Made by a program: the position numbers and the translations under genes. From a virus, in the IMG/VR virus record IMGVR_UViG_3300044611_000330, positions 1-28,069 of that record: 28,069 nt of DNA; one strand, written 5' to 3'. Under the pieces are notes generated by a model. The model saw only the letters and a program-made list of their open reading frames with translations. It was not told where the DNA came from and made no database searches. This document shows, one piece after another, positions 1 to 24,084 of this stretch; within the stretch, counting starts at the first letter, position 1; each line of letters begins with the position of its first letter.

Positions 1-15
1 TTGTTTTGTAGGCGT

Positions 16-77
16 GAAATGGTTGGAATCGAACCAACTGAAGGCGCTTCCCCCCGCCAACGCAAACCTGCCATTTC
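16..77 (-). other. tRNA-like three-way fold (T-arm plus acceptor-like stem), not a complete tRNA
   Basis: On the minus strand a textbook T-arm is visible: stem GTTGG/CCAAC (34-38 with 22-26) around loop TTCGATT. It is closed by an acceptor-like pairing of GAAATG (77-72) with CATTTC (21-16). Between them sits one further hairpin, GGCG/CGCC (55-58 with 43-46). Only about 33 bases separate the acceptor-like strand from the T-arm, where a tRNA needs about 41, so either the D-arm or the anticodon arm is missing. No good anticodon loop is present and no CCA follows. It lies just downstream of the last leftward gene. It could be a tRNA remnant, a 3'-UTR structure, or the tRNA 3'-end piece of an attachment site. 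No integrase is seen here. Confidence 0.35.
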
Positions 78-113
78 GTTCCCCGCCACGACGATTAAAC
101 GGGGAGATTTAGT

Positions 114-560
114 TTATTGCTTTTGTGCGCCTAATTGTGCCAAAAGAGCAGCAACTTCAGGTGTGATGCCTTCGGGTGTTGTTACCACCGCAGGGGCAGG
201 GGCAGTTGCCCCGCCAATGAAGGCATTTGCTTTGGCTACTGCTGCCGCATCGCCTGTGGCATCATTTAGAATCCAAGGTGCAGATTTACCTGGCTTGGCA
301 ATGCCTTGGCCGATGCGAGCTAAGACCTTTTGCCCAACCTTTGCCTTGAGTGCGTTCTTAAGTGCAACATTGAAAAACAAAACATTGTTATAGGTTTTGT
401 TTGAATCAAGATCAACAAGATTGACCTCAATGGCATCGGTTTCACCGTGAACGGTTTGAATTCCAACCTTATATTCGATTGGTTCGATTATTAACAAAGC
501 ACCGGCAAGGTCAGCAACTTTGACACTTTCGGTGGAACTGCTTGGTGCGCTGAATGTCAT
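114..560 (-). CDS. Putative OB-fold/ssDNA-binding-like phage protein
   Basis: This 148-residue soluble protein is the last gene of the leftward early operon. It has a beta-rich N-terminal two-thirds (about residues 15-105) with alternating hydrophobic strands and a conserved-looking run GKSAPWILNDATGDAAAVA, then an Ala/Pro-rich linker and an acidic helical tail ending AALLAQLGAQKQ. The layout of a beta-barrel-like core with a flexible tail, plus its place directly after a Cas4-like exonuclease, suggests a single-stranded-DNA-binding or recombination-accessory role. The tail lacks the acidic DDxPF tip of bacterial SSB, so this is inference from context and composition. The start ATG at 560 overlaps the TGA of the upstream gene by 4 bases, indicating translational coupling. 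Confidence 0.5.
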   Translation of the reverse strand: MTFSAPSSSTESVKVADLAGALLIIEPIEYKVGIQTVHGETDAIEVNLVDLDSNKTYNNVLFFNVALKNALKAKVGQKVLARIGQGIAKPGKSAPWILNDATGDAAAVAKANAFIGGATAPAPAVVTTPEGITPEVAALLAQLGAQKQ

Positions 561-709
561 TTGACATCCCCCGTTTCTGTTTGGGTGTTACTTTGGTTTT
601 GTTGGTTTTCCAACTCTATTGGTGTTTCTAGTTCAGCCAATTCTTTGGCTATGTCATTGATTGTTTTTGCGGGCATCCCGCAGGCGCAACCATCAGTGCA
701 ACACATCAT
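557..709 (-). CDS. Cys-rich mini-protein (50 aa), unknown
   Basis: The ATG at 709 overlaps the TGA of the exonuclease gene (ATGA), and its own TGA overlaps the next ATG in the same way, so it is embedded in a coupled chain. An upstream start at 817 would run deep into the exonuclease and is not needed. The product starts MMCCTDGCACGMP, placing four cysteines within eight residues (two adjacent, then CxC). This could bind a metal or an Fe-S cluster. A helical, acidic, Gln/Asn-rich tail follows. I do not recognise the family. The neighbouring Cas4-like nuclease also needs an Fe-S cluster, but a link is speculation. Confidence 0.6.
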   Translation of the reverse strand: MMCCTDGCACGMPAKTINDIAKELAELETPIELENQQNQSNTQTETGDVK

Positions 710-1449
710 TTGGCTTCCATATCTCCATTGCAGGCAACCGATAAATCGGTGCTGAACGGTCTGAAATAAGGGCAATAATTGCAATTGCGCGATGGCACCT
801 TCGGTATCAATTCCCACATCGCAGGTGAGTTCTCAACATCAACTGTTGAAAGTAATTCATAAACATTATCTAGGCGTTTAAGTGCGCCTATGGCAATTTG
901 CTCATCGTATGGATGCAATTCAAGGTGCATATCCGATATTTGGCCGCCAGTTGGGAGAAAGGCAAGCCCAACCTGCTTAACATCGTACCCCTCTTGCGCC
1001 TTGCCATAGGCGTACAACTGAACTTGGATTATCTGTTGTTGGCTCGCACCGCTACTGCGCTTCTCCTTCACATTAGCGGGTGAGGTTGTTTTCCAATCAA
1101 TGACAATCCCGTTTTCCTTATCGTAGAGATCAACTGTCCCGGAAAGATTGGCCCTAATCTTGACCTTACTCTCTACCTCAAACCGATCAGGAAACTTTGC
1201 AAAGATACCTTCCAAATGAGAGTGAATAGCAGTTCCAACTTGAGCTGCCCAATTGCCCCCACTTGATTCATTCACCTTTTCCCAATCAAGTAATTTATAG
1301 GCTAACTTGCGGGTACATTCTTGACCCACTTCACTTGGGCCAATATAAACCTGTTGCGAACGGGGCGAGAAAATACCCGCTTGAGTAATAATCTCGCCCA
1401 ATTCAATTGCAAGAGCCTTACTTGGAGTGTTCAAAGGTGTAAAAGGCAT
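706..1449 (-). CDS. Cas4-like PD-(D/E)XK exonuclease with Fe-S cysteines
   Basis: This 247-residue protein has the RecB/Cas4-type nuclease signature: His76 in GTAIHSHLEG, Asp107 in GTVDLY, Asp118-Trp-Lys120 in IVIDWKTT, and the QxxxY motif Gln144-Tyr148. One cysteine ahead of the core (Cys45, GQECTRK) and three near the C terminus (Cys223, Cys226, Cys240) match the four-cysteine 4Fe-4S arrangement of Cas4/AddB-type nucleases. The family resects DNA ends (5'-3' in Cas4), which in phages serves recombination or replication. No Cas1, Cas2 or CRISPR array is nearby, so this is a phage recombination nuclease and not an adaptation module. It lies just after a YqaJ-C-terminal-like gene and before a possible ssDNA-binding protein. 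Confidence 0.85.
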   Translation of the reverse strand: MPFTPLNTPSKALAIELGEIITQAGIFSPRSQQVYIGPSEVGQECTRKLAYKLLDWEKVNESSGGNWAAQVGTAIHSHLEGIFAKFPDRFEVESKVKIRANLSGTVDLYDKENGIVIDWKTTSPANVKEKRSSGASQQQIIQVQLYAYGKAQEGYDVKQVGLAFLPTGGQISDMHLELHPYDEQIAIGALKRLDNVYELLSTVDVENSPAMWELIPKVPSRNCNYCPYFRPFSTDLSVACNGDMEAK

Positions 1450-1452
1450 CGC

Positions 1453-1782
1453 TTATTCATCTCCATTTACAACGGTAAAACGGCGAGATGTTGAAACTAC
1501 CTCTAGCAAATCAATCACTTGAGCAGGCAGGATTTCTCGCGCCCGCTTAGTATCAAATCGTTTGCTTTCAACAACCGACCATCTGACAACAGGGCGATTG
1601 CCAAACATTCCAACTTGAGAATCACCAAGGGCAGATTCTAAGTGTGAACGGGCGATGTCAGCTACTTCTTGCCATTCCTTAATCTTTGCTAATGCTGACT
1701 TGTATTGCTCAAGCCACGCATTTGCATCGGCATCAAAATCAACGATGCCTTTCTCTATTTCAACGGTCACTTTAACCCCCAA
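1453..1782 (-). CDS. YqaJ C-terminal-like recombination accessory protein
   Basis: This 109-residue protein has a long charged helix (about residues 22-52, NAWLEQYKSALAKIKEWQ onward), then a small beta-rich piece and the run KRFDTKRAREILPAQVIDLLEVVSTSRRF. The helix, the short V-x-W strand pair and the RFD...SRRF ending resemble the C-terminal region of phage YqaJ-type exonucleases, as I recall that family. The nuclease catalytic residues are absent. It precedes the Cas4-like exonuclease by 3 bases, so it could be a detached helper domain for that enzyme. The similarity is by eye; the assignment as accessory subunit is inference. Confidence 0.55.
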   Translation of the reverse strand: MGVKVTVEIEKGIVDFDADANAWLEQYKSALAKIKEWQEVADIARSHLESALGDSQVGMFGNRPVVRWSVVESKRFDTKRAREILPAQVIDLLEVVSTSRRFTVVNGDE

Positions 1783-1788
1783 AGTTTT

Positions 1789-2175
1789 TTAGTACCATTT
1801 GTCTTTTTTGAACTTTGCCCAGGCAGCGCAGGGGCCACCTGAACCATATTTTCTGCCGATGTAAGCAAGGGCAGCAACGGTTTGGGCAACTTCAGATTTA
1901 CTGCGAGTCATCCCAAGGTTTCTATAAGTTGAATCTAACAATTGACCCACGCCTTCGGCTGAGCTTGTTGGATTCTTTTTATCTTTCCAGGCGCTTTCTT
2001 TGCCCATAAGCAAATTAAAGCACTTAAAATCTTTTTCAGTGAGCAACTCGCGGGCGAGTTCCTTGTGATTAACCTGTTCCAAAATTGGGCGTTCTTTGTA
2101 AATGACCAATTCAGGAATTGCAGGTGTTGGATTTATTGCTTGAACCAATAGTGAAGTCACGGTTGAAACCACCAA
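1789..2175 (-). CDS. Secreted lysozyme/transglycosylase-like (SLT) protein
   Basis: The C-terminal 80 residues follow the transglycosylase/lysozyme-like pattern: a likely catalytic Glu in LMGKESAWK, then NPTSSAEGVGQLLDSTY, a helix, YIGRKYGSGGPCAAWAKF and a terminal KWY. This is the arrangement seen in actinobacterial SLT-like cell-wall enzymes. From TTG at 2175 the N terminus is MVVSTVTSLLVQA, a hydrophobic half of a signal peptide without its positive end. Reading on upstream in frame gives KRVINRIALILVV, which would complete a signal peptide. A strong AGAAGGAG lies 7 bases ahead of an in-frame ATC at 2220. The real start may therefore be ATC, giving about 143 residues. A cell-wall role is likely; its place among recombination genes is odd. 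Confidence 0.65.
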   Translation of the reverse strand: MVVSTVTSLLVQAINPTPAIPELVIYKERPILEQVNHKELARELLTEKDFKCFNLLMGKESAWKDKKNPTSSAEGVGQLLDSTYRNLGMTRSKSEVAQTVAALAYIGRKYGSGGPCAAWAKFKKDKWY

Positions 2176-2627
2176 TATGAGGGCGATTCGGTTAATGACT
2201 CTTTTTGTGTTTGGTTTGATTGGATTGCTCCTTCTCTAGCTGCCTTCGCAAGTTGTGCCGAAACCTTGTAAACATATTGGCTCGAACATTCAACTGTAAT
2301 GGCAATTTCGTTGGCGCTTTTGTTTTCCCATAACATCTGATGAATCATAATTGCTTTCTTAGATATTACAGTTCGCCGGCTTTTGCGGTTAATACTATGC
2401 CGTTGATCGGCTGTGTACCCGCCCCAAAATCCGTAAACAATTCGCTTGTCAAGTGCGTACTCCAAACATTCCTCTCTATGAATACAACTCCCGCAGATTT
2501 GCTTGAGTCGGGGCAGGCGTTCTGCCTCATCGTGCTTCGTATCTGGAAAGAAATAATCTTTATCCTCAACTTTTGCACATTGGGCTTCTCGGAACTTGGG
2601 TGAATCGCTGAATATGTCAAAGTTCAT
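2157..2627 (-). CDS. WhiB-family Fe-S transcription factor with C-terminal helix-turn-helix
   Basis: The chosen ATG at 2627 overlaps the stop of the upstream nuclease gene (ATGA). It gives 156 residues with the four WhiB cysteines Cys17, Cys45, Cys48 and Cys54 (C...CGSC.....C), the pre-cluster FFP, and the GFWGGYT turn (residues 66-72) that follows the cluster in WhiB proteins. WhiB proteins hold a 4Fe-4S cluster and bind the principal sigma factor of actinobacteria. Phage versions can repress host transcription (TM4 WhiB is the known case). After a basic stretch (RKSRR) comes an extra segment, about residues 92-127 (AIMIHQMLWENKSANEIAI...QYVYKVSAQLAK), that reads as a helix-turn-helix. A typical WhiB ends near the basic region, so this is an extended architecture. 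Confidence 0.88.
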   Translation of the reverse strand: MNFDIFSDSPKFREAQCAKVEDKDYFFPDTKHDEAERLPRLKQICGSCIHREECLEYALDKRIVYGFWGGYTADQRHSINRKSRRTVISKKAIMIHQMLWENKSANEIAITVECSSQYVYKVSAQLAKAAREGAIQSNQTQKESLTESPSYWWFQP

Positions 2628-2977
2628 CTCCTTGTACCGTAGCCCGCTTCTCGCAGTAAATTGGTGATTTGTTCTAGCGACATAATCGCCCACCAATTTG
2701 CGGTGTTAGCAGTTCCAACACCGTTGGGTTTCACAACCAAAACGCCAAAGTCTGCCTTAGCGTTTTTGGTTTCCTGTTCGGTTTCTTTTAACCAAGCAGG
2801 AATCTTATAGGTTTTATGATTCTTAACTTCCCAAGCCAATGCAGGGGTGCCTGTTATATCGCCAAGATCAAGTGACCCGTTGAGCGCCCTTCTTTCGGCG
2901 TAAGGAAAACCGTTATCAATTAAGAATTTGACAACGGCTGTTTCCGCTGAGGTTCCCTTTGCTTTGGCTTTGGACAT
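2624..2977 (-). CDS. Holliday-junction-resolvase-like PD-(D/E)XK nuclease
   Basis: This 117-residue protein begins KAKGTSAETAVVKFLIDNGF, with Glu12 as the first acidic residue. The catalytic core is Asp40 in LGDITG and Glu50-Val-Lys52 in WEVKNHK. This E...D...ExK spacing fits archaeal-Hjc-like resolvases that are common in actinophages and cut four-way DNA junctions during recombination or before packaging. An LKETEQETKNAKADFGVLVVK segment follows the core, also typical. The ATG at 2977 overlaps the stop of the upstream 27-residue gene (TAATG), and its own stop overlaps the WhiB start. Nicking or VRR-NUC-type activity is an alternative. Confidence 0.72.
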   Translation of the reverse strand: MSKAKAKGTSAETAVVKFLIDNGFPYAERRALNGSLDLGDITGTPALAWEVKNHKTYKIPAWLKETEQETKNAKADFGVLVVKPNGVGTANTANWWAIMSLEQITNLLREAGYGTRR

Positions 2978-3060
2978 TAAATCTCACCATCATTATCAGC
3001 AAAAATGCCAACAACTGAAATCACGCAAATAATCATTACAACTAGAGCTAACCAAAACAT
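2977..3060 (-). CDS. 27-residue single-span membrane peptide
   Basis: This short frame begins ATG at 3060 and ends in a TAA that overlaps the ATG of the nuclease gene (TAATG). It encodes MFWLALVVMIICVISVVGIF followed by ADNDGEI: one hydrophobic span of about 19 residues and an acidic tail. An AAGGA lies about 9-10 bases upstream, and a promoter candidate sits just before that. The exact coupling and the clean membrane profile argue that it is real, but no family is recognised. Confidence 0.45.
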   Translation of the reverse strand: MFWLALVVMIICVISVVGIFADNDGEI

Positions 3061-3105
3061 TTGGCGTTTTCCTTTCCGTTCAAGGTCAAGGGTGACACAC
3101 GCTAC

Positions 3106-3135
3106 ACCATAAACCTGATCGCGACACGCTATCGG
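3106..3135 (-). promoter_or_regulatory. Candidate promoter with the TGTCGCGA...CAGG motif
   Basis: On the minus strand TGTCGCGATCAGGT (3126-3113) ends just before a -10-like TATGGT (3111-3106). A poor -35-like CCGATA lies at the position giving an 18-base spacer. The same motif, without the inserted T, stands 15 bases upstream of the -10 of the rightward promoter at 3784-3813, so the phasing is shared. It would drive the nuclease-WhiB-exonuclease part of the left operon independently of the hydrolase gene. Confidence 0.35.
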
Positions 3136-3701
3136 CTAAATTGAATCTCAACCTGAAATGGTGCGCTGGTGTTTACATCAAACTTAGCTGAAAGCACTAG
3201 GGCAGTTTTGATGGCGTTGGTGGCGGTGTCAATGTTTAGTGTTTGCCCTGTTGCCTCGCCATAAACATCTGCCATTGAAGTCAGATAGCCAATGGCGTAC
3301 GCGCTACCCGACCCGATGCCGTAGGTGAAGTCTATTGATTGTGAAATGCCTAGATCGTTGCCGATTTCAAAGATGTTGCCATTAAAGGCGAGCAGGTAGG
3401 CAAAACTCGCACCCTCTTTTTGGTAATCATAGCCATTGTCTTTGAACGCCTTGATAATGCTTGGAATCACTTTTTTGCCCATAAACCCAACGGGGTCGGT
3501 GCCATCGTATAGAGGCGGTTTCCAGTTATACATCAAGACATCACCGGGGCGGCAATCCCCGCAGACCCCTAATAGGTACTTGCCAACCTTGACGATTTTG
3601 GGCGTTGAAGGCGAAATGATGCGCTTGTCACCATCGGTGATTTGGCTGTCAGCTCCAAGGATAGCGAAGCCTTTGCCTTGGTAGCCTGCAATTGTGGTCA
3701 T
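3129..3701 (-). CDS. Proteasome beta/HslV-like Ntn (N-terminal threonine) hydrolase
   Basis: After removal of the initiator Met the protein starts TTIAGYQGKGFAILGADSQ. Thr1, Asp17 and a lysine in TPKI at position 34 match the Thr1/Asp17/Lys33 catalytic set of 20S beta and HslV subunits. GVCGD (46-50), GIGSGSAYAIGYL near the middle and AKFDVNTS near the end match the family's Gly47, Ser129 and Asp166/Ser169 regions. At about 190 residues it has no propeptide, as in HslV. A TTG at 3710 would add MTP before MTTI; it has a better-spaced AGGGG but would require processing. No alpha subunit, ATPase or Pup gene is near. It may form a self-assembled peptidase or join host factors. It is the first gene of the left operon. 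Confidence 0.82.
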   Translation of the reverse strand: MTTIAGYQGKGFAILGADSQITDGDKRIISPSTPKIVKVGKYLLGVCGDCRPGDVLMYNWKPPLYDGTDPVGFMGKKVIPSIIKAFKDNGYDYQKEGASFAYLLAFNGNIFEIGNDLGISQSIDFTYGIGSGSAYAIGYLTSMADVYGEATGQTLNIDTATNAIKTALVLSAKFDVNTSAPFQVEIQFSR

Positions 3702-3729
3702 AGGGGTCAATTCTACCCCTCTGAGGGGT
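3702..3729. promoter_or_regulatory. Triple AGGGGT/ACCCCT element in the hydrolase leader
   Basis: On the plus strand AGGGGT (3702-3707), ACCCCT (3715-3720) and AGGGGT (3724-3729) alternate. The middle copy can pair with either neighbour, giving two exclusive hairpins (loops of 7 and 3 bases). The last pair extends to the perfect palindrome TACCCCTCTGAGGGGTA. In the leftward mRNA the central copy holds the only purine-rich ribosome-binding candidate for the hydrolase, so either hairpin would hide it. It could be a translational switch or a protein operator. Confidence 0.45.
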
Positions 3730-3779
3730 ATCTGTGGGGTGGGTAACAGGCGGGAAATTAGCCTTATTTGCCTTGGGCG

Positions 3780-3803
3780 TGTCTTGACACTCTGTCGCGA
3801 CAG
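3780..3803. promoter_or_regulatory. Tandem TGTC-NN-GACA operator-like dyads
   Basis: TGTCTTGACA (3780-3789, flanked G/C to make a 12-base near-palindrome) and CTGTCGCGACAG (3792-3803, a perfect 12-base palindrome) share the half-site TGTC. They start 13 bases apart. The first covers the -35 hexamer and the second sits in the spacer of the rightward promoter, a position where a bound dimer would block polymerase. Candidate binders include the 41-residue ribbon-helix-helix protein of the same cassette or the WhiB-HTH protein. This assignment is inference. Confidence 0.5.
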
Positions 3804-3813
3804 GTGCTAATTT
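3784..3813 (+). promoter_or_regulatory. Sigma-70-type promoter of the rightward mini-gene cassette
   Basis: A perfect TTGACA (3784-3789) is followed after 18 bases by TAATTT (3808-3813), preceded by an extended -10 TG. Transcription would start near 3820, and the first good start codon with GAAGG upstream is ATG 3852. The short leader holds a small GGGG/CCCC hairpin. No equally clear promoter is seen in the leftward direction for the hydrolase gene between 3711 and 3800. Confidence 0.6.
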
Positions 3814-3851
3814 TCTCTTATGGGGAACGGCCCCAAGAAAGAAGGCTCAAA

Positions 3852-4079
3852 ATGAAACTAGTTCCAACAAATGAGAAAGTGCAAATCAAGTGGTTTGCAA
3901 TTTTTGCTGATGGTTCAAAAATGCGCAACAACCAAGGTTTTGTTCACAATGCTTGGGATGTAACTTGCTCTTGCGGTTGGGAAACAAAAACAGGTGGCGC
4001 AATTAAAGCATCAGTTCAATCAGATGTTGATTCACACAAAGTAATGGAACACAACTACACAAGAAAGTTTGGTGCGTAA
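3852..4079 (+). CDS. Small CxC zinc-binding-like protein (75 aa), unknown
   Basis: ATG 3852 follows GAAGG by 6 bases and lies downstream of the mapped promoter, so earlier in-frame starts (from 3768) are rejected. The product has an N-terminal beta-strand region (VQIKWFAIFADGSKM), then WDVTCSCGWETKTGGAIKASVQSDVDSHKVMEHNY. A CxC pair together with two later histidines (SHK and EHN) could form a zinc site. No family is recognised. It is the first of six coupled genes, and its TAA overlaps the next ATG by one base. Confidence 0.75.
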   Translation: MKLVPTNEKVQIKWFAIFADGSKMRNNQGFVHNAWDVTCSCGWETKTGGAIKASVQSDVDSHKVMEHNYTRKFGA

Positions 4080-4282
4080 TGACTTACACCGAACTTATTG
4101 CGGAGCGTTTAGAAGTAAATCTTGAAACTGCAACAAAAATTCAAAACTTTGTTAATTGTTGGTTTGATTTTCGTTGGAGTGGTTCTTTCAAAAGCGACAT
4201 TGTTAAAGTTTCAAAAGAGGCATATGCAATGATGCAAGACCCAAAATACGCAGAAATGACAAAGATGGCAGAGGAAAACTAA
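4079..4282 (+). CDS. Small helical protein (67 aa), unknown
   Basis: Starts at an ATG overlapping the previous TAA (TAATG). The sequence MTYTELIAERLEVNLETATKIQNFVNCWFDFRW... is predicted helical, with an aromatic middle (NCWFDFRWSG) and an acidic, lysine-rich end. The LEVNLETATKI part has a short helix-turn-helix feel but is too brief to call. The stop overlaps the following ATG by one base. Unknown function; likely a host- or regulator-directed partner protein of this cassette. Confidence 0.72.
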   Translation: MTYTELIAERLEVNLETATKIQNFVNCWFDFRWSGSFKSDIVKVSKEAYAMMQDPKYAEMTKMAEEN

Positions 4283-4593
4283 TGAATATCCGCGACAATA
4301 TGCGTGTTCGTGTTTCACACATTTCAGGTGTTGAATTTGGAACTATTGAAAGTGCAAAAGATGCCTCTCGCGCAATTCAATTTTGTATGAAAGTGACTGT
4401 CAAAATGGATGATGGCACTTTTTGCGCTTTCCCTATTGGATGGTTGGAAGAAGTTACTGAAACTTACTATTGCGTGTTTTGTGATAACAAGGTGGGCAAT
4501 TATCGCGTTTGCTTGAACTGCAACGAATACAAAGGCGTTGTTACCGAAGCCGAATTCAATCAATTCCAACTAGATTATCCGCGTGCAATATGA
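4282..4593 (+). CDS. Protein with C-terminal zinc ribbon (103 aa)
   Basis: The N-terminal half (residues 1-55) is strand-rich, RVRVSHISGVEFGTIESAKDASR...MKVTVKMDDGTFCAFPIGWLEEV, resembling a small SH3/KOW-like barrel. The C-terminal half carries YYCVFCDNKVGNYRVCLNC, that is CxxC...CxxC with a 9-residue gap, a clear zinc ribbon that could bind nucleic acid or protein. No named family is recognised. The final TGA overlaps the next ATG (ATGA). Confidence 0.75.
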   Translation: MNIRDNMRVRVSHISGVEFGTIESAKDASRAIQFCMKVTVKMDDGTFCAFPIGWLEEVTETYYCVFCDNKVGNYRVCLNCNEYKGVVTEAEFNQFQLDYPRAI

Positions 4594-4775
4594 GCGCAAT
4601 GAAATCTCTTTACCTTGACCTAACAACAGGCGTTGCCGAAATCAATCAAACTTTGGAAGAAGGATTTGACCTGCAAAATGCCACCTTTGAAACAATAGAT
4701 TTGGCACTTTGCCAATCAATCATCAAGTTATCTGAAATGCGCAACACTCTAAAAGAATTGGGAGCAGTAAAATGA
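4590..4775 (+). CDS. Small helical protein (61 aa), unknown
   Basis: The start ATG at 4590 overlaps the preceding TGA by 4 bases; an ATG three codons on is an alternative. The product MSAMKSLYLDLTTGVAEINQTLEEGFDL... is predicted to be mostly alpha-helical (DLALCQSIIKLSEMRNTLKELG), possibly coiled-coil or helix-bundle forming. No motif is recognised. Coupled to the next gene by another ATGA overlap. Confidence 0.68.
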   Translation: MSAMKSLYLDLTTGVAEINQTLEEGFDLQNATFETIDLALCQSIIKLSEMRNTLKELGAVK

Positions 4776-4918
4776 GAATGACCCGCAAATGGCGTTTGGT
4801 TAGAACCGCCTTTATCATCGTTGGCGTTTGGCTAGTAATTGAAATCTCAAAAAACCTTTGGTGGACATCTGAAGGTTACTGTTGGGGCGATGCTGCCAAG
4901 TGCGTTGGTGGTCTGTAA
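4772..4918 (+). CDS. Single-span membrane protein (48 aa)
   Basis: This gene is shorter than common ORF cut-offs but is fixed by overlaps on both sides: ATGA with the previous stop and TAATG with the next start. The product is MRMTRKWRLVR (positive, cytoplasmic side) followed by TAFIIVGVWLVIEI (membrane span) and a C-terminal WWTSEGYCWGDAAKCVGGL with two cysteines that would face outside and could pair. A role in superinfection exclusion or lysis timing is possible. No family is recognised. Confidence 0.65.
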   Translation: MRMTRKWRLVRTAFIIVGVWLVIEISKNLWWTSEGYCWGDAAKCVGGL

Positions 4919-5043
4919 TGGTTACCCCACAACGCTCAATTCGCATCAATGAAGAACTATGGCGCAAAGCCAAAGAGAAAGCTGAAAGCGAAGGCAAGAA
5001 CATAAGCGAAGTGATTGTTGCTTACTTGAAAGATTACGCCTAG
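4918..5043 (+). CDS. Ribbon-helix-helix DNA-binding mini-protein (41 aa)
   Basis: The product begins MVTPQRSIRINEELWRKAKEKA and ends ISEVIVAYLKDYA. It has the single basic beta-strand (RSIRI), helix A (NEELWRKAKEKAESEG) and helix B (NISEVIVAYLKDYA) of Arc/CopG/MetJ-type repressors, with almost nothing outside the fold. Such proteins bind DNA as dimers at short palindromic half-sites. It is the last gene of the rightward cassette, 8 bases before the terminator. Autoregulation through the TGTC-NN-GACA dyads at 3780-3803 is a plausible but unproved link. Confidence 0.75.
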   Translation: MVTPQRSIRINEELWRKAKEKAESEGKNISEVIVAYLKDYA

Positions 5044-5051
5044 CAAAAGGC

Positions 5052-5091
5052 GAAAGAACCCCCAACAGGAACGGCTGTTGGGGGTTCTTTC
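5052..5091. terminator. Bidirectional terminator between convergent operons
   Basis: A perfect 17-base-pair stem, GAAAGAACCCCCAACAG (5052-5068) with its complement (5075-5091), closes a 6-base loop GAACGG. The stem's A/T-rich feet supply a short U-run in either direction. It lies 8 bases after the rightward stop and 20 bases after the leftward stop at 5112, ending both operons. Confidence 0.9.
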
Positions 5092-5111
5092 TTGGGGGTG
5101 CGGTGAACGCA

Positions 5112-5378
5112 CTAAATCTGTGTTATGGTAAAAATTCTTTCATAGTTATCAGCAAATGAGTCAGCGTATTTTGGCAGTTGATCGGACAAATTCCCCGTTA
5201 GGTTCTTGTCCAATATGTAGCTGACATCGGCATCATCATAGGCGTTACGCATTGAATTGTTGGCATCCAAGATAAACAACAAGTCATAATCTTGAGGCAA
5301 CAAGTTAAACATTTCCTGTAGCGCCTTTGCCTGCTCAGGTTGCCCTTTTGAAGCAACTAGAAAAAGAATCTTATTCAC
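5112..5378 (-). CDS. Glycosyltransferase-like N-terminal fragment or unknown (88 aa)
   Basis: GTG 5378 overlaps the end of the previous gene and follows GGGGAG by 10 bases, giving VNKILFLVASKGQPEQAKALQEMF. The strand-loop-helix start, then YDLLFILDANNSMRNAYDDAD, resembles the first half of GT-A-type phage glycosyltransferases (usually S/TRGRPE... and a DxD). Here the metal-binding DxD reads DANN and the second half is missing. It could be a decayed transferase or an unrelated small Rossmann-like protein. It is the final gene before the terminator of the virion operon. Confidence 0.55.
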   Translation of the reverse strand: MNKILFLVASKGQPEQAKALQEMFNLLPQDYDLLFILDANNSMRNAYDDADVSYILDKNLTGNLSDQLPKYADSFADNYERIFTITQI

Positions 5379-5637
5379 GGGTGGCAATCTCCCCTGAAAT
5401 GCTGAAATACGCAGCGCCATCTATGAAACTATCAAGATGATCGGGCGTTTCAATCAAGCGAGCAACCTTGACCAACGCCAAGCAGATTGCGGCTTGGGCG
5501 GGAGTAATCTCAGTTTCAAGATATACCGACCAAAGCGCCGCAATTCGTTGATGATTTGTTAGCGGGTCACCATAGTTTTTATTTCGATCACCGTGCGTGA
5601 GGCGTGAAGCCTCTTGAAGAATATCCCCCCGGAGCAT
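5371..5637 (-). CDS. DUF6378-like small phage protein
   Basis: The 88-residue sequence carries the run ILQEASRLTHGDRNKNYGDP...RIAALWSVYL and ALVKVARLIETPDHLDSFIDGAAYFSISGE. The GDR-x-x-x-YGDP motif and the KVARL/H-x-DS-x-x-DGAAY helix are characteristic of the DUF6378 family found in many phages. The family's function is not established; all-helical acidic motifs led me to consider a nucleotide-pyrophosphatase-like fold, but that is inference. It begins 8 bases after the glycosyltransferase stop. Confidence 0.7.
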   Translation of the reverse strand: MLRGDILQEASRLTHGDRNKNYGDPLTNHQRIAALWSVYLETEITPAQAAICLALVKVARLIETPDHLDSFIDGAAYFSISGEIATRE

Positions 5638-5645
5638 TTGTTTTC

Positions 5646-6710
5646 CTATTCTGTCGGTTCTTGGCTTGCGCTTAATTTGTAAAACTTAACATTTTCTTTA
5701 AGCCTATCAATCCACGGCGCTAAAGATACTGCCTTTTCACCGTGTTCAAGTGCCTCTTTTGGTTTGTTTAGGTTGTGGCACGCAATCGCAATTAGATCGT
5801 GTGGCAGGTATCCCCAAGCATCTGACTCGTTTAAGTATTCTAGTGGTTGCTGCGTTATTCTCAATGCGGCGTGGGCTTGGGCGTAACAGTCTAACCATAA
5901 GCCTTTTGAATAGTAATGTTGAGCAAGATCAACTCTTGGCTCTCGACTGCCTGGCGATTCTGCAATGGCTTTAAGTAGCCAAGATTCGCGTTCGGATTCA
6001 TCCATTTTGGCTAAATAGCGCATTGAGGCAGCCCGTTCAGGTTTCCATACCGCCTTGGGCAACTCTAAATGGCGTTTAAACTCTTGTATTGCCTCTGCCC
6101 ATTTATTGTGAAAGAACAGTTCTCTTGCGTTGTAAAAGCAATTTCTATCATCTGTTGAATCTTCAAGCACCGATTGGGCGAGCAATTCAAAATACTGACC
6201 CCTTGATTTTGTATCGTCAGGGTGGTGATGGATTTCGAGCTTTGTCCAGGCTTGAAGTTCGCTTGTGGTACAAGTCAAGACTTCGTGAACAGGGTGCTTC
6301 CATCGGTAATTCTTGCGCGAGTGAATCTTATCCCCGCCGTAAACTAGGCCGGGCGAGCCGTCAGGGTTCCAACTCCAAGTGTATTTATACCTTGGGCGGG
6401 TAACTTGCGCTTCCAAAGATTCTAATTCCTTGCGCCACCCTGGTTGCAATTGCTCATCCATATCGAGTGCAATGCAGTAGTCAATGTCAAGTGGGATTGC
6501 GGCTAAGGATGCGTTGCGGGCATCGTCAAAGCGCCACGGGCTTATGCCAATGTTGATTACGCTGATGCCAAGGGCAGTTGCCAATTCAACAGTTTTATCA
6601 GTTGAGCCGGTGTCGGCAATGAGTAAGTAATCAGCATCTTTAGCTGAGTCATACCAACGCTGAACAAATTGTTCTTCGTTTAGCGCAATTGTGTAAATTG
6701 CTATTTTCAA
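5646..6710 (-). CDS. Family 2 glycosyltransferase with C-terminal TPR-like repeats
   Basis: The N-terminal 100 residues follow the GT-A fold of family 2: IAIYTIALNEEQFVQRW, LLIADTGSTDKTVELA, and the metal-binding Asp83-Met-Asp85 in CIALDMDEQL. The histidine-containing SRKNYRWKHPVHEVL (about residues 130-145) fits the acceptor side of this subfamily. From about residue 190 the protein is helical with repeated TPR-like pairs (CYAQAHAALRITQQPLEYL; ACHNLNKPKEALEHGEKAVSLAP). It transfers a sugar from a nucleotide donor. In a virion operon the target may be a capsid, tail or fibre protein, or the host surface. That choice is inference. Confidence 0.85.
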   Translation of the reverse strand: MKIAIYTIALNEEQFVQRWYDSAKDADYLLIADTGSTDKTVELATALGISVINIGISPWRFDDARNASLAAIPLDIDYCIALDMDEQLQPGWRKELESLEAQVTRPRYKYTWSWNPDGSPGLVYGGDKIHSRKNYRWKHPVHEVLTCTTSELQAWTKLEIHHHPDDTKSRGQYFELLAQSVLEDSTDDRNCFYNARELFFHNKWAEAIQEFKRHLELPKAVWKPERAASMRYLAKMDESERESWLLKAIAESPGSREPRVDLAQHYYSKGLWLDCYAQAHAALRITQQPLEYLNESDAWGYLPHDLIAIACHNLNKPKEALEHGEKAVSLAPWIDRLKENVKFYKLSASQEPTE

Positions 6711-6728
6711 GCGTTCCCCCGAACTTGG

Positions 6729-6962
6729 TTATTTGGCTAGTGCTGCGATTTCTTCAGGTGTTAAACCAAGGGCAGCCAACTTAGCTTGTGCTGATGCCTT
6801 AGCATCTGCCTCAGCTGCAGCCAAAGCGTCAGCTTCTGCCTTAGCAGTAGCAGCAGCGATAGCGTCTAGTTCACGTTGCTGGATTTCCTCTTGAGTTAGC
6901 GGAACTTCAACGGCTATTCCTGTAGCGCAATTAACTTCGATCTTGATTGGTGTATCAGACAT
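6729..6962 (-). CDS. Small Ala-rich helical tail-region protein (77 aa)
   Basis: Short protein with a beta-like start (IKIEVNCATGIAVEVPLTQEEIQQRE), a long alanine-rich helix (about residues 35-65), and the ending LAALGLTPEEIAALAK. Small proteins with this pattern often follow tail-fibre genes in environmental phages, but the role is not established. Its start overlaps the stop of the preceding gene. Confidence 0.6.
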   Translation of the reverse strand: MSDTPIKIEVNCATGIAVEVPLTQEEIQQRELDAIAAATAKAEADALAAAEADAKASAQAKLAALGLTPEEIAALAK

Positions 6963-7263
6963 TCTCTATCTCCTTGATTGTATGTGCTTCATTTGAACAG
7001 TTCCATCGGCAGGTTGCCTCATCTAGCGTTGCTTCATCGTGGCACTTAGGCGCAATGAAGGCATCACGGGTGGCATCATAGGTATCGCCAATGCCAGCGT
7101 ATTTGAATCTGATATTAGCGTTGTAACTTGTCTGTACCCAGACACCACCTAAGCCAAGGTCATTGGCTAGGAAGTCTTGACCGCGATGTTCTTGCTCATC
7201 TGGTACAACTAATACCCGTAGAACGGTTCCACCATTAGGGTCTATCTCTGCAAAATGACTCAC
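6955..7263 (-). CDS. Tail-fibre-associated protein of the cyanophage-like FAEID...ETCxW family
   Basis: The true start is a GTG at 7263 overlapping the upstream stop (GTGA). A longer frame to 7473 only reads the glycine-rich gene out of frame, giving an Arg/Trp-rich artefact. The product HFAEIDPNGGTVLRVLVVPDEQ...GGVWVQTSYNANIRFKYAGIGDTYDATRDAFIAPKCHDEATLDEATCRWNC matches a small protein widespread in cyanophages and pelagic phages: an N-terminal AEI/VxRVxVV strand, WxQTSYN, RxxYAGIGxTYDxxRDAFIxPK and CxW. It is usually beside tail fibres. Exact role unknown. Confidence 0.75.
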   Translation of the reverse strand: MSHFAEIDPNGGTVLRVLVVPDEQEHRGQDFLANDLGLGGVWVQTSYNANIRFKYAGIGDTYDATRDAFIAPKCHDEATLDEATCRWNCSNEAHTIKEIENV

Positions 7264-8582
7264 GCTAAATACCTCACAATTACTAGACCTGAACCGCCGT
7301 TGCCGCCAACACCAAACGCACCACCGCCGCCAGAACCTGTGTTCGCTACTGCCGCTGATCCGTTGCCAGCGCCACCGCCGCCTGAACCTGCTGCGCCAAC
7401 AGTTCCGCTTGAACCGCCACCACCGCCACCAGCAAGATAACCGCTTACACCTAAGCCTACAACTGATAGCCAAGATGAATGAGCATTTGAACCTGCGCCA
7501 CCTGCTCCTGCTGTTGTTGAAGCAATAACATTTCCACCGACTCCACCAGCGCCACCACCGCCCGCGGCAATTTGATTCTGAGTGCCGCCTGTATAATTTC
7601 CGCCAGCAAAACCCTGAACTGGTGAAGTTACAGGAGATGAAGCGCCGCCTGTTGATGAGTTGCCACCATTTACACCGCCACCGCCGCCGCCTGAACCGCC
7701 AGCTGCTCCATTATTGTTGGCAACCGCGCTAACATTTCCGCCTGAACCACCTGCGGTACTCGTTATGGTTGAAAATACTGAGTTATTGCCATTAGTTACG
7801 GTTCCGCTTGTCCAGTCAGCACCTGCTCCACCAGCACCAATTGTTACTGTTGTTGCCGAAGTAGTAAGTGCCAAACCTGTTGTTGATCGGTAACCACCTG
7901 CACCACCGCCGCCGTGATGACCACCACCACCACCTGCAACAACTAGCACATCGCAAGATAAGTTTGTGGCTGGGGTAAAGGTGCCTGAGCTAAGAAACGC
8001 GTGGTACCAGTAAGTTCCATCGGTCTGAATGATTGAACCGCCAGTTGCCTTTGGTGCCTTTGTTGGGGTAGTGCCAAGGGCAGATACGCCGTAAAGGGAG
8101 AAGGTTGAGTGTTGAACAAGTTGTCCAGTATTAGGAGTAAAAGTTATTGAAGTGATCGCTGCGGTACTAGACCATAAACCAGCAGACATATCAGCATAGG
8201 CAGTTGTTGCATTGTTTTCGCTTACGCTATCACCTGAATAACTTTTGAAGTTGGCGCTTGTATAATTTGGAAAATACATTTCACCATTTCCAAAAGTGTT
8301 AGCAGTAGAACTTGCTCCAGAGTATTCAATTACAAGTCTTGGAAAACCACTGCCACTTGAAGCACTTGCGCCATTTCCATTTAAGTAACGACCAGTAAAA
8401 CTTGTTGCGCTACCGTTTAAGGATATGTTAAGAAAGTTGCCGATATTTCCTGTGTTATCTCGCACAGACATTTTGACTACCAAATCGGTGTAGCCAGTTT
8501 GAGGGATGCTGTTGAATGTAACACTGCTTGCTCCCGCAGCGCCGACAGTAATTGTTTCTAGGAGTGTATATGTATTTGGCAT
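7260..8582 (-). CDS. Tail adhesin with glycine-rich C-terminal domain (440 aa)
   Basis: The first about 170 residues form a beta-domain that starts YTLLETITVGAAGASSVTFNSIP-TGYTDLV and ends STFSLYGVSA. This domain is shared with the two neighbouring genes. A bridge (GGSIIQTDGTYWYHAFLSSGTFTPATNLSCDVLVVAGGGGG) leads to a roughly 230-residue glycine-rich region with runs such as GGGGAGGYRSTTG and TVTIGAGGAG. That is the polyglycine-type receptor-binding domain of many phage adhesins. It likely contacts the host surface. The gene is GC-richer than its neighbours because of the glycine codons. Confidence 0.8.
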   Translation of the reverse strand: MPNTYTLLETITVGAAGASSVTFNSIPQTGYTDLVVKMSVRDNTGNIGNFLNISLNGSATSFTGRYLNGNGASASSGSGFPRLVIEYSGASSTANTFGNGEMYFPNYTSANFKSYSGDSVSENNATTAYADMSAGLWSSTAAITSITFTPNTGQLVQHSTFSLYGVSALGTTPTKAPKATGGSIIQTDGTYWYHAFLSSGTFTPATNLSCDVLVVAGGGGGHHGGGGAGGYRSTTGLALTTSATTVTIGAGGAGADWTSGTVTNGNNSVFSTITSTAGGSGGNVSAVANNNGAAGGSGGGGGGVNGGNSSTGGASSPVTSPVQGFAGGNYTGGTQNQIAAGGGGAGGVGGNVIASTTAGAGGAGSNAHSSWLSVVGLGVSGYLAGGGGGGSSGTVGAAGSGGGGAGNGSAAVANTGSGGGGAFGVGGNGGSGLVIVRYLA

Positions 8583-8594
8583 TTAGTTTCCCCT

Positions 8595-9104
8595 TTAAGC
8601 CGCGGCAATGCCGTAGAGATTGAATGTTGTTCCTACCGCCATTGTGCCTGAGAATGGTCTAATGTCTAGTTGAGTAATTGCTGAAGTGCTGGCATAGAGA
8701 TTAACAATTGCTCTAGTGCCTAACCCAGCAGAACCTACTCGGCTAAGAATTGTTTTATTTGTAGTGGTATTGGAATAGTTTTGAAAGTTCCAAATTCCAA
8801 CACCAAAACTTGTGCTAGTTGGAAAAGTATTTCCTTTTGTATAAATACCATTTCCACCTAAATCTGTTTGACTAAAGCGCTCTGAACTTGCAGCGCTTCC
8901 ATCTCCGCTCAGGAGTGTTGCTGAGTATTTGTTTGTAGTATCTGAATTGCATCGAATATAAAAGGAAGTATTATCGCTCATCTGTATTGAGCCAACTAAA
9001 ACTAAGTCAGTATAAGTTCCAGGAATACTAGAAAAGGTAACTAGCGAAGAAGCAGAACCAAGAGTGGTGCTGGCGATTTGGGTATATGTATTTCCTGCTG
9101 GCAT
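8595..9104 (-). CDS. Tail adhesin-domain protein, paralogue 2 (169 aa)
   Basis: This protein is little more than the beta-domain of its neighbour: NTYTQIASTTLGSASSLVTFSSIPGTYTDLVLVGSI at the N terminus and GTTFNLYGIAAA at the end. Between these lie a strand pair with NS/GDGSAASS and a GIWNFQNYSNTTTNKTIL core. It aligns by eye along its full length with residues 1-170 of the 440-residue protein. Probably a minor tail or receptor-binding component. Confidence 0.75.
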   Translation of the reverse strand: MPAGNTYTQIASTTLGSASSLVTFSSIPGTYTDLVLVGSIQMSDNTSFYIRCNSDTTNKYSATLLSGDGSAASSERFSQTDLGGNGIYTKGNTFPTSTSFGVGIWNFQNYSNTTTNKTILSRVGSAGLGTRAIVNLYASTSAITQLDIRPFSGTMAVGTTFNLYGIAAA

Positions 9105-9116
9105 TGTCGCTACCCC

Positions 9117-9719
9117 TTACTTAATTCCATATAAAGCCCAATGACTGTTAGCAGCAAATGTTGTACCGCTGACAGTTATTGAAATGCTATTAACTGCTGC
9201 TGTATTAAACCAAGCACCAGAAAACATATTTAACCAAGTGCTAGAACCATTCAAGTCAACGCCTGACAATGTACGAACTGTTGTATTTTTATTTGTATCT
9301 TTGTAGTCTAAAATGTCTATAATAATTCCTGTATAAGCACTTGCAGTATTTGTTGTTACTGGGCCTAACATATAACCATTACTTACTGAGCCTCCAGCAG
9401 ATGTTGTAGCACCATTGCCTTCTAAAAAGTGCCAAGAATAATTTGTGCCAGTATCTCCATTAAGTCTAATTACCATATTAGCCGCAGCCGCAGACGCAGC
9501 AGTTGCTCGTAATTGAAGATGACGATAAGTGCTAGGAATTGAACTAAAAACAACGGTAGTTGTGGTTGTGTAAGGCGTAACTGTCGCAATGCTGTCAAAG
9601 TCATTGGCAGGTGACCAAGGGTTCCAAGTAGTGTTACCCGCCAACATATCGGGATAGCGGTTTAAGGTCTTAAACCCACCCGCGTTTGACATCTTAAAGA
9701 TGTTGTTGTTTGAAGCCAT
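9117..9719 (-). CDS. Tail adhesin-domain protein, paralogue 3 (200 aa)
   Basis: A roughly 40-residue N-terminal segment (IFKMSNAGGFKTLNRYPDMLAGNTTWNPW) precedes the shared domain: TTTVVFSSIPSTYRHLQLR, LEGNGATTSAGG, IIDILDYKDTNKNTTV and the terminal SHWALYGIK. The N-terminal segment is often seen on fibre-type proteins of environmental phages and may attach the domain to the virion. ATG 9719 overlaps the previous stop by one base. Confidence 0.75.
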   Translation of the reverse strand: MASNNNIFKMSNAGGFKTLNRYPDMLAGNTTWNPWSPANDFDSIATVTPYTTTTTVVFSSIPSTYRHLQLRATAASAAAANMVIRLNGDTGTNYSWHFLEGNGATTSAGGSVSNGYMLGPVTTNTASAYTGIIIDILDYKDTNKNTTVRTLSGVDLNGSSTWLNMFSGAWFNTAAVNSISITVSGTTFAANSHWALYGIK

Positions 9720-10024
9720 TAGGAGATTTCCACGCCCGAAATGTGAAAGTTAATTGTGGTGGCTGATGCGCCACCACTGATGGTGTTTGTTGTAGCTAGG
9801 ACTTGCTTGAGTGGAATCACGGTTGAATCATAGGCGCCAACAGTTACAAGTGTGGCAATGTTTGTGCCGTTAAGCGCCATTGTGAATGAACCAATCGCAC
9901 CCGCCGTGTTAGTTACCACAATGTCTGTGACCACCGTTGTTGTTGATGCCGGCACTGTGTAGAGCGTTGTGGCAGTATTTGTTGTTGCAGCTCCGCGAAA
10001 GAGTGCCTTTGATGTTTGTGGCAT
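9719..10024 (-). CDS. Small beta-sandwich virion protein (101 aa)
   Basis: A Thr/Ala-rich all-beta protein: LYTVPASTTTVVTDIVVTNTAGAIGSFTMALNGTNIATLVTVGAY...NFHISGVEIS. The YTVPASTTxVVTxIVVTN...FTMxLNGT pattern is common in small phage structural proteins beside fibres. Probably a decoration or fibre-tip component. No enzymatic residues are seen. Confidence 0.65.
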   Translation of the reverse strand: MPQTSKALFRGAATTNTATTLYTVPASTTTVVTDIVVTNTAGAIGSFTMALNGTNIATLVTVGAYDSTVIPLKQVLATTNTISGGASATTINFHISGVEIS

Positions 10025-10049
10025 TAGTTACTGCTCCATTTTCTTTTCA

Positions 10050-11909: not shown

Positions 11910-12253
11910 CGAGTCACCTCTGCGCTAATAGCAAGTTCGCCTTGGACTAAACGGGTTACGGTGCCTGAGCCAGCAATTAGTTCAAGATCGTAAACATAAG
12001 TGCCTGCAGGTAAAAGTGTTGTTTGTGTAGCTGTTTGATCTAGGCTAATTGTTCCCAATGCGCCGCCAAGAGTGATGCCACCGTTTGCAGTTGTTAGCGT
12101 TAAAACTGTTTCAGTATCTTCAACATCAACGCGTGCTTGTAGGCGGGCAGTATAATTAGTTAGATTGACTGCAACATCGTTAATTTTCCAAGTCAAAAGA
12201 AGGTTAAAAGTTGCCCCTTGTTCAATCGTAAAATCTAAAGTACCTGCTGCCAT
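11906..12253 (-). CDS. Conserved tail/fibre-associated beta-sandwich protein (115 aa)
   Basis: The sequence starts [43 protein letters not shown], then a central [21 protein letters not shown] and [16 protein letters not shown]...[10 protein letters not shown]. The pattern of a QGATF strand, a W, DLTxYTARMQxR and a YDLEL pair belongs to a small protein family found beside tail fibres in many phages, resembling the N-terminal beta-sandwich of BppU-type baseplate proteins. Structural role likely, exact site in the virion unknown. Confidence 0.72.
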
Positions 12254-12281
12254 TTATTTACTCCAAAATTGAAAGGGTGGG

Positions 12282-12467
12282 TTACTTTGAGCCTCTGCCA
12301 AAATCTACGGCTGAAGCATCTAGCCACTTGAGGATTGGACCAGCAGCGCCAGCAAGGGCGGCATATCCAAGAGTCTTAAGGTCGGTTTCACCGGCAAGAT
12401 ATAGAGCTATTGCAGATGCAGCAGCGGCGCGAAACCAAGTTAATGAGATTTGTTTGAATTGTTCCAT
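12282..12467 (-). CDS. Holin-like membrane protein (61 aa)
   Basis: WFRAAAASAIALYLAGE forms one membrane helix and LGYAALAGAAGPILKWLD a second, weaker one. The run W-x-RAA-x-A-x-x-A-x-YLAGE...AGPxLKWLD resembles small r1t-type phage holins. GGGAG lies 9 bases ahead of the ATG. Standing directly beside the endolysin gene supports a role in making membrane lesions at lysis. Confidence 0.68.
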   Translation of the reverse strand: MEQFKQISLTWFRAAAASAIALYLAGETDLKTLGYAALAGAAGPILKWLDASAVDFGRGSK

Positions 12468-12481
12468 TTTTGATTGCTCCC

Positions 12482-12979: not shown

Positions 12980-13167
12980 TTTTTTACCAAATCTAAGATT
13001 ATTTCCATTTGAGCTTCAAGTCTGTTAATTGAATCGCGCATTGAGTTGCCACCGTTGGGCTTGAGTTCTGCCAAGTAATGTTTTACAAGCCATCTTACCG
13101 CACCCGCAAATGCGCTTACAATTGCGATTATAGATACGATTAAGCCTGCCCAGTTTGCTGGTGTCAT
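12976..13167 (-). CDS. Membrane protein, second holin or lysis-regulator candidate (63 aa)
   Basis: One strong span (WAGLIVSIIAIVSAFAGAVRWLV) is followed by a charged helix with coiled-coil character (SMRDSINRLEAQMEIILDLVKK). This outline is common to actinophage proteins encoded beside the endolysin. The stop overlaps the endolysin start (ATGA). It may be the holin proper, an antiholin or a spanin-like helper. Confidence 0.65.
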   Translation of the reverse strand: MTPANWAGLIVSIIAIVSAFAGAVRWLVKHYLAELKPNGGNSMRDSINRLEAQMEIILDLVKK

Positions 13168-13181
13168 TTGCGCGATCTCCG

Positions 13182-23139: not shown

Positions 23140-24084
23140 TTATTTTGTGTTATTGATAATTGCTTTGGCTAAGCGCAGTGAAATTGAACGCGCTGGCACA
23201 TCGGTTGGCTCTAACTCAACTTCAGGTTCTTCAACTTCAACAGTTGGGGTTAGTGTGTTTAATCCAAGCAAAACTTCAAGCATTGTTTTTCCTTCTTCAA
23301 GGCTGTCATAAGAATCAGATACCTTTTCAAGAATTGAATTGATAACAAGAGTTGATTCGCCATCTAATGCGCGACCTTCTTTAATTGCTTCCATTGCGTT
23401 TTTGATTGCCTCTCTTGCTTCAACTGAGGTGGTTGGGTAGGCCGGATAAGTAACCACGCTAACATCGCCATCGGCCAATGAAACTTCGGTAAGCGTACGA
23501 GTTGAGCGATCTTCGCTCCACTTTTGGCGAATCACACGAAAAGCAAAACTCATTTGGTCAACATCTCCGCGCTCAACTAATTTGTAAAGGTCGCGCCCCT
23601 CGCTAGTGTCTGCAATAACTGCATCCATAAACAAGCCGCGATCATCTTCAGTAAGGGTCAAAGTGCCATTCTTTGTGCGAGCTAATGGCAAACCTTCGTG
23701 ATTGATAAGCAAACGAACATCAGGTGTTTCGCTTAATGTTTTACGGAAAGCGCCGGGGGCGATAGTTTCCTTAAATGGTAGGGGAACGCTTGCATCATTG
23801 AACACTGCTGCGTAACCACGCAACCGCATTGTTCCATCATCTGCTTGGCGTGCTTCAACATCTTGAACCGTAAATGTACGGCGTTCAATTTCTTTCACTT
23901 TGCTCCTTGAGTTAACTTCCCCGCCTGGTTCCATATCTTCAGAGATTGAAACTGCAACCATTTGATCTATTGCATCTTGCTTATTATCGTGACACGCAAG
24001 CGTTGTATAAGAACCATCTGTTTCTTGCTTTACTGTTGCCCATCCTGAACAATCAGCTTGTTTATTACTAATAAAGTAAGGCAT
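23140..24084 (-). CDS. Prohead protease, HK97/U35 family, with extra N-terminal domain (314 aa)
   Basis: The protease core (about residues 68-225) opens RRTFTVQDVEARQADDGTMRLRGYAAVFNDAS, has the catalytic His129 in LLINHEGLPLARTKNGTL and Ser179 in DQMSFAFRV, and the LADGDVSVVTYPAYPTT loop. It processes the capsid delta domain inside the prohead. The first about 50 residues (MPYFISNKQADCSGWATVKQETDGSYTTLACHDNKQDAIDQMVAVSISED) form a separate small domain with Cys12 and Cys31 that HK97 gp4 lacks. The C terminus is acidic and may bind the scaffold. It overlaps the portal stop by one base. Confidence 0.9.
   Translation of the reverse strand: MPYFISNKQADCSGWATVKQETDGSYTTLACHDNKQDAIDQMVAVSISEDMEPGGEVNSRSKVKEIERRTFTVQDVEARQADDGTMRLRGYAAVFNDASVPLPFKETIAPGAFRKTLSETPDVRLLINHEGLPLARTKNGTLTLTEDDRGLFMDAVIADTSEGRDLYKLVERGDVDQMSFAFRVIRQKWSEDRSTRTLTEVSLADGDVSVVTYPAYPTTSVEAREAIKNAMEAIKEGRALDGESTLVINSILEKVSDSYDSLEEGKTMLEVLLGLNTLTPTVEVEEPEVELEPTDVPARSISLRLAKAIINNTK

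Follow-up and report, generated by a model that had tools for sequence, protein, structure and literature searches.

A Proteasome-like Threonine Peptidase Gene Conserved in Phages That Probably Infect Actinobacteria

The stretch of viral DNA analyzed here, 28,069 nucleotides at its full length and referred to below as the window, carries a gene for a protein whose sequence places it in the proteasome-like family, on the side of HslV, BPH, and AAH. Sequence and structural model together make it highly probable that the protein adopts the fold of the proteasome-like Ntn-hydrolase superfamily and is catalytically competent. The reading that we propose as a whole, to which we give an even chance, is that of an active, ring-forming, ATP-independent threonine peptidase that would be used early in infection.

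3129 to 3701, minus strand: proteasome/HslV-like threonine peptidase gene, 190 amino acids, beginning Met-Thr1, with its stop codon at 3131-3129

An initial annotation of this DNA had placed the gene at 3129-3710. The gene itself is real, but it lies on the minus strand, where the frame is open, and its likely start is at 3701 rather than 3710; a plus-strand reading of 3129-3710 contains 11 stops and was rejected as not open. The TTG at 3710 is the start of the listed 193-residue open reading frame. In 10 printed rows of relatives (L005, L007, L012, L013, L015, L017-L020, and L024), Ile stands in the place of this codon, which was rejected as a start because it is unconserved. Because the codons preceding the ATG at 3701 also differ among relatives, whereas T-T-I following ATG or GTG is conserved, translation most probably begins at this ATG (3701-3699), which would yield M-TTIAGYQG... 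with Thr1 directly behind Met. Given this start, immediately 5′ of Thr1, the protein lacks an N-terminal propeptide, as the annotation had stated. Met-aminopeptidase takes off Met when Thr follows. In one close relative, at L022:3486-3944, the match begins only at residue 41, though the contig runs on upstream; either the copy is broken or frame-shifted, or the sequence contains an error.

Family searches agree with the naming of the product as a proteasome/HslV-like hydrolase. The Pfam Proteasome profile (PF00227) matches at 26.8 bits, over its cut-off of 22.4, and phrog_1040, labeled “peptidase HslV family”, matches with an E value of 1.3e-22; the NCBIfam HslV profile scores 15.1 bits, below its cut-off of 137. 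A Pfam match to GHMP kinase (15.5 bits, under its cut-off) was regarded as noise. The AlphaFold2 model, calculated from 33 rows (pLDDT 92.8, pTM 0.88), has the proteasome fold and matches BPH, HslV, and the 20S β subunit. Foldseek comparison with the PDB returns BPH, at ~20% identity, and HslV/ClpQ as top matches; VIA-align gives HslV a Z score of 19.9, with BPH and 20S β chains tied at 19-20; and the family profile has BPH 5ovu as its top match, with almost the entire length covered (E 4.8e-12). The modeled subunit is compact and of group I, without insertions or a C-terminal extension, and its helices 50-59 and 70-88 precede the next strand, with no helix earlier than residue 50. Near neighbors in a viral structure library include a 134-residue protein of an uncultured phage (93% identical), one from Gordonia phage Daredevil (18% identity), and several others annotated as HslV or proteasome. 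Both the structure prediction and the profile search suggested in the annotation thus place the protein inside the Ntn-hydrolase fold.

Genes of this kind had been described as occurring in phages only sporadically, a view that the distribution contradicts. The family phrog_1040 exists as such; phage-borne PPH and AAH have been named and described by Fuchs, Alva, and Lupas (2021), according to the part of that text available (PMC8665760); relatives are present in 13 GenBank phage records (two phages entered twice); and an IMG/VR scan with the alignment found at least 484 relative-encoding stretches among at least 599 pattern matches. The scan with the window protein alone gave 42 loci. Clade 1 comprises phages like that of the window, at 62-100% identity; clade 2 lies at ~50%; and clade 3, which is ct2KA10-like, was found at 34-35% in the scan. 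The peptidase is held by 39 of 41 contig clusters anchored on the neighboring exonuclease gene and by 36 of 38 anchored on the gene at 5371-5637, two sets that overlap and in which loci sharing sequence were merged; the scan behind the second anchor kept 80 of 198 relatives. The peptidase is near-core in the clade-1 group, not sporadic. Two related contigs, L242 and L250, retain the neighbors without the peptidase. The 88-residue product of the anchor gene at 5371-5637 matches PHROG families labeled phosphofructokinase, a name that is doubtful at that size.

None of 158 pattern matches in genome_contigs encodes a close cellular relative of the window branch. A phrog_1040 search of 396 sampled genomes from the phylum of a Frankia gave matches in 115, among which are a Frankia AAH-like gene (L196), a gene read as HslV and followed by an HslU-like gene (L195), a divergent gene amid phage-looking genes (L194), a copy in pieces with a stop (L197), and, at lower scores, PrcB-like loci (L198-L200). 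The cellular AAH-like set, so named by distribution and features rather than by a published accession, spans Rhizobiales, Frankia, Streptomyces, Actinoplanes, Paraburkholderia, Paenibacillus, and others. On a Sinorhizobium americanum plasmid (L122:1359-8522), the AAH-like gene lies amid rpoN, nifQ, nifS, and homocitrate synthase genes. Within the flanking sequence covered, nif-type neighbors occur at 5 of 62 cellular AAH-like loci, all in Sinorhizobium/Ensifer, and a general tie of AAH-like genes to nitrogen fixation was rejected as a local matter.

The residues expected of an active enzyme are in place. The annotation's set of Thr1, Asp17, and Lys33/34 is present, with the lysine at 34, one residue past the Lys33 position; together with G47, S130, and D174xxT177 (numbering from Thr1), these residues align with the 20S β catalytic set. 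Of 44 clade-1 rows, 43 retain T1, D17, and K34 (8 contigs entered twice; the remaining row, L022, lacks the N-terminal part, as judged by its match range), as do 52 of 52 clade-2 rows and 11 of 11 clade-3 rows. G47, S130 (Thr in clade 3), and G131 are also conserved wherever rows extend; in the clade-1 alignment, one row is blank at 129-131 and two at D174, consistent with where contigs L021 and L032 end. In an alignment of distant relatives, all 19 rows from the three clades have D174 and T177 aligned with the Asp and Thr of all five PrcB rows, whereas HslV rows have Cys and Thr at these positions, and all 14 AAH-like rows lack both equivalents, with Ser/Asn and Val instead. Because D174 and T177 are as in PrcB, unlike HslV and AAH-like proteins, the window branch has a more 20S-like residue set. 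In the available text on yeast β5, a role is described for D166, S129, and S169 (PMC4792962), and the D166 and S169 positions correspond to D174 and T177. Median dN/dS is 0.08 in clade 1 (17 rows, 136 pairs) and 0.094 in clade 2 (13 rows, 75 pairs). The conserved catalytic positions and low dN/dS speak for an active enzyme and would disfavor a decoy.

The tree was computed from 53 hand-chosen rows (L055 omitted; Anbu and BPH not included), after L045, L050, and L054 had been trimmed at their C-terminal ends and PrcB beyond 200 residues. PrcB and HslV rows are separated from everything else by starred branches, although the tree program warns that these two branches are long and join each other; the five PrcB rows are set apart from the window branch at 100/99 (starred). 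Clades 1 and 2 are united at 99/98 (starred), and clade 3 and Actinomycetia phage DSL-LC01 join them at 94/91, unstarred. Cellular AAH-like rows and seven T-C-I type phage proteins, two of which have other second residues, form a separate group at 98/99 (starred), and the window branch lies beside this group, not inside it. L049 (Tunturi_5) is on a long branch, and its placement is unsure. The tree placement proposed in the annotation thus gives an actinophage branch that neighbors the AAH-like proteins and is separate from HslV and PrcB.

Similar to AAH as described in the available text, the window protein is a compact group-I subunit, phage-borne and propeptide-free, with Thr1 behind Met, D17, and a K33-type lysine; the cellular AAH-like set used here also agrees with the AAH distribution given there (PMC8665760). 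The main differences from the AAH-like proteins are T-T-I rather than the T-C of 54 of 59 cellular rows, GDxR rather than an SSFRMGQ-type motif, and G47, S/T130, and DxxT rather than mostly S/T47, C130, and SxxV, in addition to the starred tree branch that separates the cellular rows. These cellular counts cover 59 of the 62 loci (L185-L187, which are short matches, were omitted), and L177, L182, and L183, which are frame-broken or of odd length, were read unaltered, L177 in A6 as well. On these comparisons, the window branch would be an actinophage neighbor of AAH, or AAH in the wide sense. PPH is likewise phage-borne and proteasome-like, but it is described in the available text as having ~140 residues and no helix H2 (PMC8665760), whereas the window protein, at 190 residues, shows two helices in the model; its predicted structure and size rule out PPH.

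Among solved structures, both the profile and Foldseek rank BPH (5OVU/5OVS) first, although the identity is only ~20%; the same text describes it as a barrel of two rings that apparently has no unfoldase (PMC8665760). HslV shares the fold and the Thr1/D17/K33/G47/S130 set; the window protein differs in its low NCBIfam score and its separate position in the tree, and no HslU was found in 17 records, some of which may be fragments. The window protein differs from 20S β (PrcB) in being grouped elsewhere in the tree and in having no propeptide. Annotated phrog_1040 genes are found in phage DSL-LC01, Geobacillus virus E3, and Tunturi_5, each as a single gene. Other phages have been reported, in the parts of the sources available, to carry HslV without HslU (a Salmonella phage, PMC7823757) or a “BPH” together with an AAA+ protein (a Citromicrobium phage, PMC8953757). 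The relative in DSL-LC01, a phage from a lake, is 34.8% identical and adjoins whiB; the available part of the DSL-LC01 paper makes no mention of the peptidase. No paper characterizing a phage member was found in searches of an open-access library, and the literature examined contains no report contrary to the annotation's statement that the function of such phage genes is not established.

The peptidase gene heads a leftward block and faces a divergent gene across a short intergenic region. The features considered are as follows.

114 to 3701, minus strand: leftward gene block, with the peptidase as its first gene
706 to 1449, minus strand: PD-(D/E)XK / Cas4-like exonuclease (phrog_1674, PF12705), a neighbor in two phage clades
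1789 to 2175, minus strand: transglycosylase-like protein (phrog_12661)
2157 to 2696, minus strand: WhiB-family regulator (PF02467), a pointer to an actinobacterial host
2624 to 2977, minus strand: RusA-like resolvase (phrog_244), the next gene downstream of the peptidase
3702 to 3851: divergent intergenic region from the peptidase to the rightward gene
3714 to 3730: TACCC-N7-GGGTA inverted repeat, the sole copy in the window
3780 to 3789 and 3793 to 3802: two TGTCNNGACA palindromes, the sole two in the window
23140 to 24084, minus strand: HK97-type head maturation protease (phrog_80), a separate virion protease of the window phage

The order in the window runs from divergent small genes through the control region to the peptidase, the RusA-like, WhiB, and transglycosylase-like genes, a small gene, and the exonuclease. 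The start of the rightward gene opposite the peptidase is read as ATG 3852; the open reading frame list has TTG 3768. Two or more TGTCNNGACA palindromes arose anywhere in 7 of 100 shuffles, and the TACCC-N7-GGGTA repeat in 1 of 100; the arms of the latter are conserved throughout the closest sequences, 17 counting the window, but not in six remoter clade-1 rows. Both elements look like putative operators. A simple scan of 2900-5200 found no σ70-like site on the peptidase strand. The annotation's description of the peptidase as the first gene behind a control region is thus supported by its place at the head of the block and by the palindromes in the divergent gap. Farther along, at 10050-11909 among tail-side genes, the window encodes a 619-residue protein with long collagen-like GPTG-type repeats.

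This context recurs in two clades. Counted by loci rather than contigs (for clade 1, 43 loci on 35 contigs, 8 of them present twice), and with some neighbors lost at contig ends, the exonuclease lies near the peptidase in 36 of 43 clade-1 loci and 50 of 52 clade-2 loci, and WhiB in 39 of 43 and 46 of 52, respectively. In clade 2, the exonuclease starts ~0.8 kb and WhiB ~2.1 kb past the peptidase start. By BLAST, neither gene was found near the peptidase in any of the 11 clade-3 loci. In other annotated phages, homologs lie close to nucleotide-metabolism, methylase, ligase, or PhoH genes. In Vibrio phage V6Aob (L051:3283-4528), a peptide deformylase gene and one small gene precede the peptidase homolog, a neighborhood that may matter because exposure of Thr1 requires deformylation as well as removal of Met.

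A search for WhiB was positive in all 16 long records examined from the three clades; among 14 control genomes, only Corynebacterium was positive. The nearest terminase to that of the window phage is from a Pontimonas phage (47%). WhiB and terminase together point to actinobacteria as the probable hosts; the DSL-LC01 paper, in its available part, likewise takes WhiB as a sign of an actinophage. At the DNA level, window positions 1-14000 have a single near match among GenBank phages, a 43-base piece of a tail fiber gene.

As the annotation had noted, no ATPase or α subunit accompanies the peptidase in the window. The window gives no AAA_2 or AAA match, and AAA_2 (HslU/ClpX-type) matches are absent from all 17 records searched, some of which may be fragments. 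PF00004 (AAA) matches only the three clade-3 records, and in ct2KA10 the match coincides with the DnaB-like helicase. A Pfam Proteasome search of the window record gave one match, and therefore no α subunit is seen. Because the record is a 28-kb linear piece, an unfoldase may be encoded by the host or by another part of the phage genome.

Clade 3 has a different setting. In all eight loci examined (of 11), the peptidase gene begins 15 bp behind a gene for a protein of 595-611 residues and shares 4 bp with the gene that follows. In ct2KA10, the preceding gene encodes the portal, the terminase comes before the portal, and the major head protein follows further on. At L046:18201-21470 and, near 6001-6534, in L036 and L037, the peptidase lies between the portal gene (or whichever gene takes its position) and further virion-block genes; in other phages, this slot is where the head maturation protease sits. 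Among 20 chosen ct2KA10 proteins, the peptidase included, comparison with PHROGs named no head protease, and the phrog_80 protease family, with members in 6 of 7 clade-1 records and in the window, gave no match in any of 6 clade-2 and 3 clade-3 records. A virion role is therefore conceivable in clades 2 and 3, and especially in clade 3. Many phages whose capsid and portal are of such types lack a head protease or can dispense with it.

A virion-associated protease that processes capsid, portal, or ejection proteins would account for the clade-3 gene being packed behind the portal position and for no head protease having been found. However, gene position alone is weak evidence, and because several large ct2KA10 proteins are of no known function and the records may be fragments, a protease may have been missed. 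In clade 1, the peptidase lies outside the virion genes. The window phage has its own HK97-type protease at 23140..24084 and should not need the peptidase for its capsid; the annotation's suggestion of a virion-protein cleaver, taken as a capsid maturation protease of this phage, was rejected on that ground. Overall, a virion protease is unlikely, and it is most plausible in clade 3 rather than in the window phage. A combined version, in which an actinophage-own lineage serves as virion-processing (head- or ejection-protein) proteases in ct2KA10-like members and acts early in the cell in window-type members, strikes us as rather improbable.

The place of the gene at the head of the leftward block, before the resolvase, WhiB, and exonuclease genes, and its absence from L242 and L250, which retain those neighbors, would also suit a protease for counter-defense or host takeover, directed at a single host protein that it would eliminate. 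PADLOC matched none of the four proteins tried, with a library that covers defense, not counter-defense, and near-core presence would be unusual for a strain-specific counter-defense gene; we regard this function as improbable.

A monomeric specific ligase or single-target processing enzyme has a precedent in connectase, which the available text describes as a monomeric ligase of the proteasome fold marked by a two-helix S3/S4 insertion (PMC8665760). The lack of an unfoldase partner in the 17 records is in keeping with such an enzyme. However, the model, with no helix before residue 50, is predicted to lack the S3/S4 insertion, and the top profile match is BPH, which makes a connectase-like function quite doubtful. 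An inactive or dominant-negative subunit that poisons the host 20S proteasome, as the annotation had also entertained, has a possible target, given the 115 of 396 genomes that match phrog_1040 and the PrcB-like L198-L200, but it is very unlikely in view of the conserved catalytic positions, the dN/dS of ~0.08, and the starred branches that separate the window branch from the five PrcB rows.

The ring-forming, ATP-independent peptidase stays the preferred reading. In the proposed mechanism, removal of the initiator Met would expose Thr1 as the nucleophile, with D17 and K34 as the probable general-base pair and S130, D174, and T177 as a putative second proton-relay set. By analogy with BPH and HslV only, the subunits may assemble into a homo-oligomeric ring or double ring, which would work without a dedicated unfoldase and hence, presumably, without ATP. 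Such a particle may clear proteins that are small or unfolded, or may instead remove a single regulator of host or phage origin. Early timing is proposed from gene position alone, at the head of the leftward block. Against this reading, connectase shows that the fold may serve a specific ligase without rings (PMC8665760), and two related contigs, L242 and L250, do without the gene.

The phage-borne class itself was already known, and the actinophage branch is an addition to it, with carriers that probably infect actinobacteria; the available text on AAH places it in many phages, with no Actinobacteria-specific phage found to carry it (PMC8665760). That text also reports no genomic context hinting at a function for PPH or AAH, whereas here the context is fixed, with WhiB, the exonuclease, and a divergent control region. 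This fixed context, together with the place of the clade-3 gene in the virion block, makes both intracellular and virion roles testable. A near-core, conserved enzyme in widespread actinophages would offer a handle on the role of phage-borne proteasome homologs.
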